A stretch of 64,000 nt of DNA from Fodinibius sediminis (GTDB lineage: Bacteria > Bacteroidota > Rhodothermia > Balneolales > Balneolaceae): the NCBI RefSeq assembly GCF_900182555.1, contig NZ_FXTH01000013.1, forward strand, positions 62,001-126,000, written 5' to 3'. The translations under genes and the position numbers were made by a program. Below, piece by piece: positions 31,167-39,333 of this stretch (position 1 is its first letter; the number at the start of each line of letters is the position of its first letter). The notes below the pieces were generated by a model that saw only the letters and a program-made list of their open reading frames with translations, was not told the origin of the DNA and made no database searches.

Positions 31167-31925
31167 ATGGATTACAGTCGACGAAGTTTTTTGCGAGAAA
31201 TCACGACGGCCTCACTTGGTGCGGCAGGCGCTTACTGGTTGCCGACATTGGCTCCTGAAAAGACAGCCGGGAACAAGGCATTTGATGCCATCCCCCAAGA
31301 AGGGAGAGTTCTTTTTCAGGGAGACTCCATCACGGATGCCGGGCGGGATCGTGAAGCGGAGGCAGCCAATACAGGCCTTGGCAGAGGCTATGCCTTCCTG
31401 GCAGCGGCCCAGCTGAGAAAGACCCTGGCCGAGCGCAATGTCCAGTGCTTTAATCGGGGTATCAGTGGTCACAAAGTGTTTCAGCTGGCGGATCGCTGGC
31501 AGACGGATACCTATGATCTGGATCCTGATCTTCTGAGTATTCTTATTGGCGTCAATGACTTCTGGCATACCCTCAATGACTATGATGGCACGGTCGAGGT
31601 GTATGAGCGGGATTTCAGAAACCTCCTTATCCAAACCAGGGAACAGCTGCCGGACGCCCGCCTGATCATTGGAGAACCGTTCGTAATTCTTGAAGGATCT
31701 GCTGTGAGTGAGGAGGAGTGGATGCCCGACTTCAGGGAATACCAGCAGGTGGCTAAGGAGATTGCCATGGAATTTGAGGCCGGTTTCATTCCCTATCAAT
31801 CCGTCTTTAATGAAGCTTCCAAGCATGTGGAGTCCACCTACTGGACGGCAGATGGGGTGCATCCCACGCTGGCGGGCTCGCAGTTAATGGCGGAAGCGTG
31901 GCTGCAGACCGCCCAGCGCCTCTAA
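31167..31925 (+). CDS. Exported SGNH/GDSL hydrolase
   Basis: A 252-residue hydrolase with a twin-arginine-like leader (SRRSFLREITTASLGAAGAY). The four SGNH blocks are visible: GDSIT (catalytic Ser), NRGISGH, GVNDFW and DGVHPT (catalytic Asp and His). Such enzymes act as esterases on acylated sugars, lipids or arylesters in the periplasm. It starts 11 bases after fbp and may be co-transcribed. The natural substrate is unknown. Confidence 0.92.
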   Translation: MDYSRRSFLREITTASLGAAGAYWLPTLAPEKTAGNKAFDAIPQEGRVLFQGDSITDAGRDREAEAANTGLGRGYAFLAAAQLRKTLAERNVQCFNRGISGHKVFQLADRWQTDTYDLDPDLLSILIGVNDFWHTLNDYDGTVEVYERDFRNLLIQTREQLPDARLIIGEPFVILEGSAVSEEEWMPDFREYQQVAKEIAMEFEAGFIPYQSVFNEASKHVESTYWTADGVHPTLAGSQLMAEAWLQTAQRL

Positions 31926-31971
31926 GTTTTTGAAACATCGCTTCGGCCGAGAGGTACAGGCAAGATAGATG

Positions 31972-32466
31972 TTAAAGGGCAACCTTCATGCCTTCCTGGA
32001 TATCGTGGGATACGCAGTAGCCGGCGTTAACCTCTATAACATACTGAGCCGGTTGGCTGGAGGTCAGGTTTTTTTCGGAAAATGGCTGGGTGCTGTGGTG
32101 GATGCGCACGATCTCTTTGTTGGCGTTGACAAAAATGATGTCGAGAGGGAGGGGCGTATTGGCCATCCAGAAACTGCGCGGCTTGTTTTCATCGAAAATG
32201 AACAGCATCCCCTTGGAGGCGGGCAGGTTTTGTACATCCATCAGTCCCTGGCTCCGTTCCTTGTCATCATCTGCGAGGGCGGCCTCGATCGTTGAAATCG
32301 TATCTCCCTGGACCGTTAAAAAAGAAACGGTCGTTACATACTCAAGCGTGCGACTCCCGCGGCTCCCATTTTCGGGCTTAGGATCGGGTTGGTCCGTAGA
32401 TTGAGAACAGCTTCCGATCGTGAGAGCAAGGGATGCTGCGACAATAGCTGGTAACAAATATTTCAT
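31972..32466 (-). CDS. DUF192 domain lipoprotein
   Basis: A 164-residue protein. The leader AASLALTIGSC gives a lipobox Cys at about residue 20, then a polar linker. The DUF192 domain (about 52-160) shows ERSQGLMDV, GMLFIFDENKPRSFWMANT, PLDIIFVNANKEIV and AQYVIEVNAGYC. DUF192 is a small all-beta exported domain of unknown function. It is convergent with the SGNH hydrolase and divergent from rimP. Confidence 0.93.
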   Translation of the reverse strand: MKYLLPAIVAASLALTIGSCSQSTDQPDPKPENGSRGSRTLEYVTTVSFLTVQGDTISTIEAALADDDKERSQGLMDVQNLPASKGMLFIFDENKPRSFWMANTPLPLDIIFVNANKEIVRIHHSTQPFSEKNLTSSQPAQYVIEVNAGYCVSHDIQEGMKVAL

Positions 32467-32658: not shown

Positions 32659-32689
32659 TTGTTTTTTTAGCGGATTAACGGTATCTTTG
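32659..32689 (+). promoter_or_regulatory. Bacteroidota-type promoter of the rimP-nusA-infB operon
   Basis: TTG (32659-32661), a 20-base spacer, then TATCTTTG (32682-32689), a full match to the TAnnTTTG -7 box. Transcription should start about 6-8 bases later, directly before a hairpin at 32698. The same layout and spacer are found before rpsO and tRNA-Ser in this window. Confidence 0.8.
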
Positions 32690-32697
32690 ATTGCTTT

Positions 32698-32729
32698 AAG
32701 TGAGCGCCGAAAGGTTCTCACTTTTTTTT
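32698..32729 (+). terminator. Leader terminator/attenuator before rimP
   Basis: AAGTGAG pairs with CTCACTT; CC/GG pairs inside it close a GAAA tetraloop, and a run of eight T follows. It is a full intrinsic terminator, yet it lies at the start of the predicted transcript and upstream of rimP, so read-through must be controlled. NusA, encoded in the operon, affects pausing at such hairpins, so feedback is plausible. Confidence 0.78.
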
Positions 32730-32750
32730 GTACCTGTAATCACGAAAATT

Positions 32751-33212
32751 GTGTCAAACAACGTAATAGATAAAATTTCTGAGCTGGCGGAGTCCGTACT
32801 CTCGACCACTGATTTTTTTCTGGTTGATGTAGAAATCAAAGGCGGGGATATCCCTGAAATATGGGTTTCGGTCGACGGTGAAGAGCGCGGCGTTAATATG
32901 GATGAATGTGCTGAAATAAGCAATGAGCTCAGCTTCCTGATGGAGGCTCATGACCTTTTTTCCGGCCGCTACCGCATCAATGTATCCTCGCCGGGGTTGG
33001 ATCGTCCGTTGGTTGACCGGCGGCAGTATCCCAAGAACAGGGGGCGTCGCGCACGCGTTTCCTACAGGCAGGACGGAGAGGACCTGAAGGTGGAAGGAAC
33101 CCTGCAGGATGTTTCCGACAAAGGCATCGTGGTTAAGATAAATGAACAAACGACCGTGGAGCTGCCTTTTGATGATCTGGTAGAAACAAAAATTATTCCT
33201 TCTTTTAAATAA
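32751..33212 (+). CDS. rimP: Ribosome maturation factor RimP
   Basis: A 153-residue protein needed for 30S subunit maturation. Features are FLVDVEIKGG, the conserved YRINVSSPGLDRPL (about residues 72-85) and a C-terminal SH3-like domain with KVEGTLQDVSDKGIVVKI. The start is GTG at 32751, where MSNNV begins; frames further upstream overlap the attenuator. It leads the rimP-nusA-infB operon, 24 bases before nusA. Confidence 0.93.
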   Translation: MSNNVIDKISELAESVLSTTDFFLVDVEIKGGDIPEIWVSVDGEERGVNMDECAEISNELSFLMEAHDLFSGRYRINVSSPGLDRPLVDRRQYPKNRGRRARVSYRQDGEDLKVEGTLQDVSDKGIVVKINEQTTVELPFDDLVETKIIPSFK

Positions 33213-33236: not shown

Positions 33237-34490
33237 ATGTCAAACAACGTATCGAAACAGATTATTCAATCTTTTGCCGAAATTGCAAAGGATAAAGATA
33301 TTGACAAAGATTTATTGTTGTCCATACTTGAGGATGTTTTTCGGACGATGATCCGCAAAAAGTATGGTTCTGACGAGGCCTTTGAAGTTATTTTGAATGC
33401 TGACCGGGGCGAGATTCAGATCCTGCACATCCGGGAAGTGGTGCCTGCCGAGGAACTGACTGACGAAGTACAGGAGATTACCATTGAGGAAGCCCGGAAA
33501 CATGATCCAGACCTGGAGCTCTACGATGAGTTTGCCCAGGAGCTTTCCATTCAGGATTTTGGCCGCCGAGCCGTTATGATGGCCCGACAGCAGCTGGCCC
33601 AGCGGATCCGTGAGATCGAAAAAGACAATATCTTTGAAGAATATTCTGACCGTGTGGGTGAGATTGTACTTGGAGACGTCTATCAGATTCGAAGCCGGGA
33701 GATGCTGGTGAACCACAATGGCGTGGAACTGGTACTGCCCAAGCAGGAACAGATTTACAAGGATCGTTACCGCAAGGGGGATACGATCCGGGCAGTTGTG
33801 AAGGAGGTTAAGCGTTACAACGGCAACCCGTCGGTTATCATATCCCGGACGTCTCCACTGTTTTTGGAGCGGTTGTTTGAAAACGAAATTCCCGAAGTTT
33901 TTGACGGTATTATTGATCTGGTGCGTATAGCCCGTGAGCCCGGCGACCGCTCCAAGGTGGCTGTGATGTCGCACGATGAGCGGGTTGATCCCGTCGGGGC
34001 CTGCGTAGGTATGAAAGGGATCCGTATCCATGCCATTGTGCGTGAGCTTCAGAACGAGAATATTGATGTCATCAATTACACCGATGACAAGTACGAATTT
34101 ATCAAGCGGGCCCTGCAGCCCGCCAAGGTATTGAGCGTGGATCTCAGTGAAGATGGCAAACTGGCCAAGGTGCTGGTGCCGGCTGATGAGGTATCCAAGG
34201 CGATCGGCAAGGGCGGCGTGAACATTCGTCTGGCATCAAAGCTCACAGATTGCGAAATTGATGTCTACCGTGAGGTGGAGGAAGAAGACGATATTGACCT
34301 GCAGGAATTTGAAATCGATTTCGGACCCGAGGTCATACAGCTTCTTCACGACATTGGTTGTGATACGGCCCGACAGGTTCTGGAGCTCGATGAGGAAGAA
34401 ATAGTCCGCCGAACGGAAGGGAAGATCACTGATGACCAGGCGGAGCGCATCATCGATATTATTGCATATGAATTTGAAGATGAGGAGTAA
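33237..34490 (+). CDS. nusA: Transcription termination/antitermination factor NusA
   Basis: A 417-residue RNA polymerase cofactor. The N-terminal polymerase-binding domain (1-130) is followed by an S1 domain (GEIVLGDVYQI), two KH domains with GACVGMKGIRIHAIVREL and AIGKGGVNIRLASKLT, and a short C-terminal helix-hairpin-helix (LLHDIGCDTARQVLEL). It lacks the duplicated acidic repeats of the E. coli protein, as is usual outside proteobacteria. Its first 14 bases after the start-codon purine match those of rimP. Confidence 0.97.
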   Translation: MSNNVSKQIIQSFAEIAKDKDIDKDLLLSILEDVFRTMIRKKYGSDEAFEVILNADRGEIQILHIREVVPAEELTDEVQEITIEEARKHDPDLELYDEFAQELSIQDFGRRAVMMARQQLAQRIREIEKDNIFEEYSDRVGEIVLGDVYQIRSREMLVNHNGVELVLPKQEQIYKDRYRKGDTIRAVVKEVKRYNGNPSVIISRTSPLFLERLFENEIPEVFDGIIDLVRIAREPGDRSKVAVMSHDERVDPVGACVGMKGIRIHAIVRELQNENIDVINYTDDKYEFIKRALQPAKVLSVDLSEDGKLAKVLVPADEVSKAIGKGGVNIRLASKLTDCEIDVYREVEEEDDIDLQEFEIDFGPEVIQLLHDIGCDTARQVLELDEEEIVRRTEGKITDDQAERIIDIIAYEFEDEE

Positions 34491-34606: not shown

Positions 34607-37516
34607 ATGTCGCCAAACGATAAACCCAAACGGTTATTTAAAGTTGCATCCGAATTCAACGTATCTACCTCTTCGATTGTAGGTTCGCTATCGGATCAAG
34701 GCTTTGAAGTGGCCAATAAGCCGAATACCAAGATCACACCTGAAATGTATGAGGTGCTGGAAGAGGTATACGGCGTAGACAAAGCCAATAGCCAGCAGCA
34801 TGAAAAAGCCAGGGAGGAATATGCCAGTCGACGTGACCAGATTCGGGCCAGCCGAAATGAAAGTGTTTCAATAGAAGATACGCTTGAGCCGTTGGAAGAA
34901 GAGCTTCCGCTGGAACCGGAGGATGAGGAGCCGGAAGAGATCGCCGGACTTACACCCCTCGACGAGTCTGAGGAAGAAGCGGAAGGGCAGCCGGAATTGG
35001 AGCCCGAAGAGCCGGAAACAGTTGAAGCCGAAGAAAAACCGGAACCTGTCGAAGAAAAGTCCAGGGAAGAAACGACGGCTGAAGAGGAATCTGTGGAAGA
35101 ACCCGCAGTGGAAGCCGGGGAAGAAGAAGTTCCTGATGAAGCCGAAGAGGAAACCGAAGTTGCAGCGGAAACCGGGGAGGAACCGGAAGATGAGATCGAA
35201 GAGGACGAGGAGTTCGAGGAAGATGAAGAAGCGTACGAAGATGAGGAAGCCTACGAGGATGAAGACGAAGAGGAGGACGAAGAGTTCGATGAAGACGAAG
35301 AAGAGTACGAAGAGGAGGACGAAGAGTTCGAGGAAGATGAGGAAGATGAGGAAGATGAGGAAGATGAGGATGAAGAAACGAAGGAAGAGGGCGTAATCCG
35401 TGGACGCGCAGGACGCTTGAAGGGCACCAAGGTTGTAGGAAAAGTCAAGATTGATGAGAGCAAGCCCAAACGCCGTAAGAAAAGGAAGCGCAAGAAAGAT
35501 CGCCGTGAGGATGATTCTGACAAGGGGAAAAAGAAATCCAAAAAGAAGAGTAAGAAGAAAAAGTCTCGCCGCCGCAGCAAGCGTGTTGACGAGGAGGATG
35601 TAGAACAGAAAATGAAAGAGACACTGCGAAAAATGCAGTCGTCTGAAACGGTTGGAAGCCGTCGTCAGAAACGCCGTCGCCAGCGTAAGGAAGAACGCGA
35701 AGAGGAAGAGCAGCTGCAGGCGGAAATGGAAGAGCTGGAAGAAAGTATCCTGGAAGTGGCCGAGTTCATTACGGTAAGTGATTTGGCCGAGCTGATGGGT
35801 GTGAAAGCGAATGAGGTGATTACAACCTGCATGAACCTGGGTATGATGGTTTCCATCAACCAGCGTCTGGATGCCAGCACCATTGAACTGGTGACCGAAG
35901 AATTTGGCTACGAAGTGGAGTTTGTCGATGCGGATGAAGCAATTGAGGAGATACAGCTGGAGGAGGATAGTCCGGAAGATCTGGAACCGCGGGCGCCCAT
36001 CATTACTGTCATGGGGCACGTTGATCACGGAAAAACATCATTGCTGGATTACATTCGTAAATCACAGGTTGCCGAGGGCGAAGCCGGCGGGATTACCCAG
36101 CACGTTGGTGCATACGAAGTGCAGACGGATGACGGAAGACCGATAACTTTCCTGGATACCCCGGGACACGAGGCATTTACGGCCATGCGATCGCGTGGGG
36201 CCCAGGCAACCGATATTGTTATTTTGGTGGTGGCCGCGGACGATGCGGTCATGCCGCAGACGATCGAGGCTATCAACCACGCCAAGGCCGGAGGGGTTCC
36301 CATCATCGTTGCTATCAACAAGATGGATAAGCCGGGAGCAAATCCGGACAAGATCAAGCAACAGCTGGCCGAATACGATGTTATTGTGGAGGAATACGGA
36401 GGGAAAAACCAGGCCGCCGAAGTTTCCGCAAAGACCGGTGAGGGAATTCCTGAACTGTTGGAGAAAGTCCTGATTGAAGCCGAACTGATGGAGTTGAAGG
36501 CTAATCCAAATCGTACGGCCAACGGGGTGGTACTGGAAGCCCGTGTAGACAAAGGAAAGGGTATCGTTGCTAATGTGCTGGTACAGAATGGAACGCTGGA
36601 GGTAGGCGATGCTTACGTGGCAGGTCCCTGTTTCGGTCGTGTTCGCGCCATGGAGAACGAGCTTGGAAACCGGGTTGAAAATGCCGGACCTTCAGTGCCG
36701 GTACAGTTGACTGGTTTCGATGATATCCCGCAGGCCGGCGACAAGCTGGTTGTGCTGGAGGATGAAAAGAAAGCCAAGGAAATTGCAAACCAGCGCCAGC
36801 AGATCCGCCGCGAGCAGGAGCTGCGCAAATCCAAGCACTTGACCCTCGACGACCTGTCGCGACGACTGGCTCTCGGTGAGGTTTCTGATCTGAATATTAT
36901 TATCAAGGCCGATGTTGACGGCTCCATTGAAGCACTTTCGGGCGCACTCCAGAAACTCAGTAATGACGAGGTTTCTGTAAATATTATCCACACGGGTGCC
37001 GGCGCCATTACCGAGTCGGACGTATTGCTGGCCTCAGCTTCCGATGCTATTATCATCGGATTCCAGGTACGTCCTACCGCCAACGCGCGGGCCGTGGCCG
37101 ATAATGAAGAGATTGATATTCGACTCTTCAGCGTGATCTATGATGCCGTTGACGAAGTCAAGGATGCCATGGAAGGCATGCTTTCACCGGAAATCAGTGA
37201 AAAACTGAGTGGAAATGCTGAAGTCCGTGAAATCTTCAAGGTTTCCAAGGTGGGAACCATCGCCGGATGTTACGTCACCGATGGCAAGATCAATCGGAAT
37301 AACCCGGTGCGTGTGGTGCGTGATGGGGTTGTTATCTATGATGGCGAAATAGATGCGCTCAAGCGCTTTAAAGACGATGTCAAGGAAGTGCAAACAGGCT
37401 ATGAATGCGGCATAAGCATTGTGAATTACAACGATATCAAAGTGGGGGATGTCATTGAGAACTACGAAATCGTCGAAGAGCGTCGTAGCCTCGAGGATGT
37501 AAGGGATAACGATTAA
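34607..37516 (+). CDS. infB: Translation initiation factor IF-2
   Basis: A 969-residue GTPase that delivers initiator tRNA to the 30S subunit. After a small helical N-domain, residues about 84-262 form an extreme Glu/Asp-rich tract, then a Lys/Arg-rich tract (about 280-330). The IF2N domain follows ([20 protein letters not shown]). The G domain has GHVDHGKTS (about 470), [21 protein letters not shown] and SAKTGEGI. Domains II-IV follow, with the C-terminal tRNA-binding part ending near [20 protein letters not shown]. The acidic tract is longer than in most homologues and is built of near-perfect GAAGATGAG-type DNA repeats. Confidence 0.97.
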
Positions 37517-39294: not shown

Positions 39295-39305
39295 GCAGAC
39301 GTAGG

Positions 39306-39333
39306 GAGGCACGCTCAAAACGTGCCTCTTTGT
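39306..39333 (+). terminator. Intrinsic terminator after rpsO
   Basis: GAGGCACG (39306-39313) pairs with CGTGCCTC (39321-39328) around a seven-base loop. The T-tract is interrupted (TTTGTT), so part of the transcription may continue into pnp. Confidence 0.85.

Follow-up and report, generated by a model that had tools for sequence, protein, structure and literature searches.

The rimP-nusA-infB operon of Fodinibius sediminis lies on the + strand of the window, the whole 64,000-nucleotide stretch of contig NZ_FXTH01000013.1 that was analyzed. It is preceded by a short leader in which a promoter-like sequence, a hairpin, and a T tract follow one another closely:

32659..32661, + strand: TTG, −33-type promoter element, 20 nt from the −7 box (sequence)
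32682..32689, + strand: TATCTTTG, −7-type promoter element of the form TAnnTTTG (sequence)
32698..32723, + strand: hairpin with a 7-bp outer stem, a C.U 1x1 mismatch (32705/32716), a 3-bp inner stem, and a GAAA loop (32709-32712) (fold, alignment, and pair counts)
32722..32729, + strand: T8 tract of the terminator (sequence)
32751..33212, + strand: rimP, with the GTG start placed by comparison
33237..34490, + strand: nusA, the proposed regulator (TIGR01953, over cut-off)
34607..37516, + strand: infB, encoding IF-2 (TIGR00487, over cut-off)

Gene order after the leader is rimP, then nusA, then infB. NusA and IF-2 were assigned by profile matches over the NCBIfam cut-offs; RimP falls below every listed cut-off, and its best matches are RimP models. 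The rimP frame is open upstream through the hairpin and contains an in-frame GTG at 32700, while the matches of relatives favor the start at 32751, 21 nt after the end of the T8 tract.

The first-pass annotation of this DNA had described a TTG-N20-TATCTTTG promoter (32659-32689) followed by a hairpin and eight T, and direct reading of the letters bears this out. Promoters that combine a TTG −33-type with a −7-type element are known from Bacteroidota. The hairpin itself had been given as a 7-bp stem with a GAAA loop; the outer stem of 7 bp and the loop stand, and the description had omitted the C.U mismatch and the 3-bp inner stem. Read 5' to 3', the structure consists of AAGTGAG (32698-32704), C (32705), GCC (32706-32708), the GAAA loop, GGT (32713-32715), T (32716), CTCAC (32717-32721), and the T8 tract, whose first two T can pair with the AA of AAGTGAG. 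Folding of 32695-32760 (66 nt) gave −15.3 kcal/mol (z −2.40), a value reached by 3 of 200 shuffles. A simple terminator scan of the window did not list the leader hairpin, because it admits loops of up to 8 and the interrupted stem goes beyond that; the scan returned seven terminator-like sites, fewer than its shuffles (10.2). Combining box and hairpin was more selective: on both strands of the window, 37 TAnnTTTG boxes were found and a single one, that of the rimP leader, has a terminator-like hairpin (≤−8 kcal/mol) 3–30 nt later. With the looser box TAnnTT, such a hairpin follows in 11 of 428 cases.

Conservation of the hairpin before rimP in related genomes had been suggested as a check of the first-pass annotation. 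By NusA the genome stands close to Fodinibius (Balneolaceae), with 96% to its best named match. Loci were chosen by NusA similarity in two sets, one made up of the 30 best among 92 NusA-bearing genomes and the other of the 80 best among 122 matches; the two sets share some genomes and yield 110 loci, 87 of them distinct. Among these best matches the pattern GTG[AG]G...C[TC]C[AG]C followed by T7–9 is kept before rimP in 110 of 110 loci, with a tract of T7 in 24, T8 in 82, and T9 in 4. The hairpin and T tract lie 17–45 nt before the RimP start (as extrapolated from the match), and in every locus RimP and NusA share a strand, with the RimP match 13–66 nt ahead of NusA. Invariant positions in the 87-leader alignment are T-A--T-T of the −7 box, GTG-G, C-C-C, and six T, and one group of relatives carries a GTGGGC...CCCGC stem. 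The hairpin is also specific to its place in the operon. At a threshold of −10 kcal/mol, terminator-like hairpins were found before rimP in 110/110 loci versus 0/110 for nusA and 0/107 for infB; at −6 kcal/mol the corresponding counts were 110/110, 3/110 at the nusA start, and 1/107 after nusA, where infB begins.

The same picture extends through the order. A nusA N-terminal match was present in 88 genomes of the order; among the matches listed, 85 of these carry the exact pattern 375–643 nt upstream of nusA. The remaining three comprise one genome with a compensated stem (G059, GTGAA/TTCAC), one in which the element is present on reading (G092), and one that lies outside the matches listed (G081). 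When whole genomes were searched, 37 of 38 (the window's own included) matched the pattern, 30 of them once and 7 twice, compared with 4 of 38 for a reversed-pattern control; allowing one T fewer, 92 of 97 genomes matched, and the reversed control then rose to 41 of 97. The pattern occurs once in the 4.4-Mb genome of F. sediminis, and the idea of a regulon was rejected for this genome on the ground of that single match. Another contig of one relative (G024:C17:3052-4859) holds a second copy of the leader hairpin together with NusA matches, one of which has two internal TGA; this is either an extra copy or contamination.

As a comparator we used the 3' terminator of rpsO, although it shows some conservation of its own. 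Across 19 genomes holding both, identity over hairpin and tail was 0.90 for the leader versus 0.70 for rpsO, and the leader was the more conserved of the two in 170 of 171 pairs. The rpsO-pnp hairpin (window 39301-39333) is itself fairly conserved, reading AGGCACG...CGTGCCT in many relatives and other letters in some genera.

Pair counts point in the same direction, with the qualification that the structure was derived from the same sequence alignment: 98.0% of cells are paired, versus 93.9% in shuffles and at most 66.5% when the structure is slid, and the covariation score is 0.221, versus 0.139 shuffled and at most 0.077 slid. Pairs changed on both sides numbered 3, against 1.9 in shuffles (equaled or exceeded in 91 of 500), and there were 7 further pair types (equaled or exceeded in 354 of 500). 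As neither count exceeds the shuffles, much of the conservation is of letters. The outer-stem changes are an A-U to G-C replacement in a six-row group, a G-C to A-U replacement in one genome (G059), and a U-A/U-G alternation, so that covariation of the outer stem is thin. The leader hairpin is no product of chance.

The interrupted stem is a regular feature of the element. A stem of 5 bp, a 1x1 mismatch, and 3 bp is present in 65 of the 87 distinct leaders; the other 22 are without this structure, and fully paired stems occur among them. The opposed bases in the 65 leaders are C.U (29), C.A (22), C.C (12), U.U (1), and U.C (1). At least 13 changes of the 3' base can be counted on a quick NusA tree, none of them to a standard pair, and the position is unpaired in all 65. 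Loops of this main class are 4–6 nt long, and 47 of its 52 tetraloops are GNRA. Pairing the 1x1 position in silico gave a mean core energy of −16.2 kcal/mol, compared with −10.3 kcal/mol for the stems as they are. The mismatch probably weakens the terminator to a degree at which it relies on a factor such as NusA. Neither this mismatch nor the GNRA loops of the leader stem were found described in the literature searched.

All 84 distinct leaders have TAnnTT within the 30 nt that precede the stem (shuffle mean 30, maximum 41); a looser six-letter score of at least 5 was reached by 63 of 84 (shuffle mean 43, maximum 57) and is less telling. Placing +1 four nt after the box, as deduced from motif 1 centered at −7 in Bacteroides thetaiotaomicron, gives a predicted RNA to the end of the T run with a median of 36 nt (range 26–60). 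Before GTGAG the predicted RNA is 4–8 nt in 61 of 84 leaders, with a median of 7. At our locus, roughly 5–7 nt of RNA would precede the stem and the terminated RNA would be about 36 nt. The first-pass annotation had put the hairpin at the very 5' end of the transcript, which agrees with this prediction. The arrangement is not uniform, however, since the best-scoring box lies so that 28–29 nt precede the stem in 12 of 84 distinct leaders and since the gap from box to stem is longer outside the order (median 18.5 nt, 58 loci).

To place the leader in a wider context, we sampled the phylum. From 148 genomes, 87 stretches were taken and two without a RimP match were dropped (one a 127-nt contig end), leaving 85 loci; 10 of these, counting the window itself, belong to the window's order. 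Terminator-like hairpins of ≤−6 kcal/mol were present in the 280 nt around the estimated rimP start in 84 of 85 loci (shuffle mean 13.5), and 72 loci had one at ≤−10 kcal/mol (shuffle mean 2.1). Some of these, mainly in GC-rich genomes of the same class, may be other terminators. Stem letters vary by group, with GAGGGGAC/GTCCCCTC, TCGCCCC/GGGCGA, and, in several phylum members, GTGGG/CCCAC. After 5 of the 84 loci with fewer than 50 nt upstream were dropped, a perfect TAnnTTTG was found within 70 nt in 44 of 79 (shuffle mean 4.1, maximum 10), and at least five of the six box letters in 67 of 79 (shuffle mean 43, maximum 57).

The survey also turned up variant arrangements. Nine same-class rimP leaders outside the order (L122-L125, L146, L149, L150, L152, and L153) have two terminator-like hairpins each, and in several of them the second has a C-rich 5' arm, recalling the tandem pair of Escherichia coli, where two such hairpins can be read before rimP. 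At eleven further loci (L158, L163, L169, L171, L174, L176, L180, L181, L193, L200, and L204) the best leader hairpin is inverse, with a C-rich 5' arm (CGCCC...GGGCG).

Taken together, the hairpin and T tract very probably form a genuine on/off brake, one of a kind already known from other bacteria, and not a novel type of switch. The first-pass reading as a promoter-proximal terminator or attenuator is well supported by comparison, through conservation, pairing, box position, and uniqueness. We consider it likely that this promoter-proximal intrinsic terminator acts as an attenuator of the rimP-nusA-infB operon, belonging to the rimP-leader class and with NusA as the most likely factor. Transcription would start a few nt before the hairpin, judging from the −7 box consensus, and polymerase would make the hairpin and T tract at once. 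A fraction of transcripts would then end as an RNA of about 36 nt, and the rest would read through into rimP, the proportion being set by factors on the polymerase or the hairpin; the expectation in the first-pass annotation that most transcripts end there is a prediction. Because only about 5–7 nt of RNA are predicted before the stem, there would be no upstream antiterminator; box, spacer, hairpin, and T tract are so short that control could come only through factors bound to polymerase or to the hairpin. NusA, when abundant, would stimulate termination and so provide negative feedback. NusA is favored because of precedent, since this effect has been reported in Bacillus subtilis and proposed for Streptococcus agalactiae and for rimP-leaders generally, and since NusA has been cited as repressing the operon in E. 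coli; by analogy, the NusA autoregulation put forward in the first-pass annotation would be the best hypothesis.

The alternative that survives best keeps the attenuator and replaces the sensed factor by NusG, RimP, IF-2, another RNA-binding protein, nucleotide levels, or sigma retention. We regard this as a possible, if distinctly less probable, reading. A sequence-specific binder could well make use of the near-invariant stem letters and of the mismatch and GNRA-type loops that mark the main class, and RimP feedback was also considered by Naville and Gautheret (PMC2965389), but the direct precedent is NusA (PMC12288461). Returning to the NusA-responsive attenuator, a narrower version is a minimal attenuator fused to its promoter, which would make its stop/go decision at about +30 to +36, just after polymerase leaves the promoter, and read the speed of sigma-NusA exchange or the amount of free NusA with neither aptamer nor antiterminator, the mismatch and GNRA-type loop serving to tune the hairpin or mark it for NusA. 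This is speculative, and we think it rather unlikely.

Other functions for the hairpin fare worse. It is improbable that the hairpin serves as a 5' stem-loop shielding the mRNA from decay, termination being a by-product; the stem does lie close to the predicted 5' end, but protection has no need for T7–9 directly 3' of the stem, the very feature kept in all 110 loci. About as improbable is a terminator that solely blocks upstream read-through, with rimP transcription starting after the hairpin. Terminators between genes are common, but all 84 distinct leaders have a promoter-like box on the upstream side of the hairpin, so that this promoter would be blocked by the terminator. Upstream on the + strand, the nearest likely gene ends at 31925, and the + strand ORFs of 104–108 aa in between (31969-32404) lie opposite a − strand ORF (31972-32466) and look spurious. 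Finally, a DNA operator spanning about +6 to +30 and occupied by a dimeric repressor is very unlikely: an inverted repeat with conserved letters does adjoin the promoter, but its T7–9 keeps to one side and one strand throughout the 110 loci, its main-class loops keep to 4–6 nt with mostly GNRA tetraloops, its stem shows U-A/U-G and compensated pairs, and its own genome has one copy.

The attenuator reading extends the rimP-leader, with a nearly invariant sequence, through an order and, in a looser form, through the sampled phylum. NusA feedback could thereby be studied beyond the usual model bacteria with a template of about 40 nt. Rfam at gathering and loose thresholds gave no relevant family for the leader. 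RF01770 (rimP, 102 positions), likewise located upstream of rimP, had no match at the locus with E up to 10; its nine matches in the genome were all below cut-off, none on the leader's contig. An L20-leader match (17.2 bits versus a gathering score of 58.7) was rejected as a generic terminator match. Literature searches for a rimP or nusA attenuator in Bacteroidota or Balneolales did not find the Balneolales form. PMC13236596 mentions neither rimP nor nusA, the main text of PMC7247131 mentions none of rimP, nusA, and infB, and in PMC7815308 rimP appears once, in a group of fusions whose expression is lower in a Rho mutant. The relevant find was a structured 5' element before rimP in Flavobacterium psychrophilum, of the same phylum, conserved in other Flavobacteriaceae and without an Rfam hit (PMC9723704); the account of it there does not use the term attenuator.

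In B. subtilis, a terminator likewise lies in the nusA 5' leader, and NusA-stimulated termination limits NusA (reviewed in PMC12288461), an effect reported there that would be expected here by analogy; the rimP (ylxS) leader of that species is 180 nt (PMC2965389), whereas ours measures about 36 nt up to the point where the T tract ends. The S. agalactiae gbs0413-gbs0418 leader terminates 31 nt after the start, before rimP-nusA-infB, as seen by RNA-seq, and NusA feedback was proposed for it (PMC4448216); it belongs to a different phylum and shares the geometry of our leader. The rimP-leader class of Naville and Gautheret (2010, PMC2965389), for which NusA control was proposed generally and where repression of the E. 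coli operon by NusA is cited, has in common with our leader a short hairpin and T stretch before rimP-nusA-infB. In the general form described there, the terminator lies 4–130 nt from the gene, which covers our 21 nt and the 17–45 nt of relatives, and no antiterminator is visible; at our locus about 5–7 nt of RNA are predicted before the stem. Its hosts include Firmicutes and Gammaproteobacteria among others, versus Balneolales here, and the word 'Bacteroid' is absent from the main text. The class motif is GGGc...gCCC, whereas the stem here is GTGAG-C-GCC-GNRA-GGU-N-CTCAC; the motif is loosely approached by the G-rich stems of one relative group and several phylum members noted above. Judged by its sequence, the leader is thus predicted to function like the rimP-leader class and is distinct from RF01770, its anatomy fitting that class except that GGGc...gCCC is only loosely matched.
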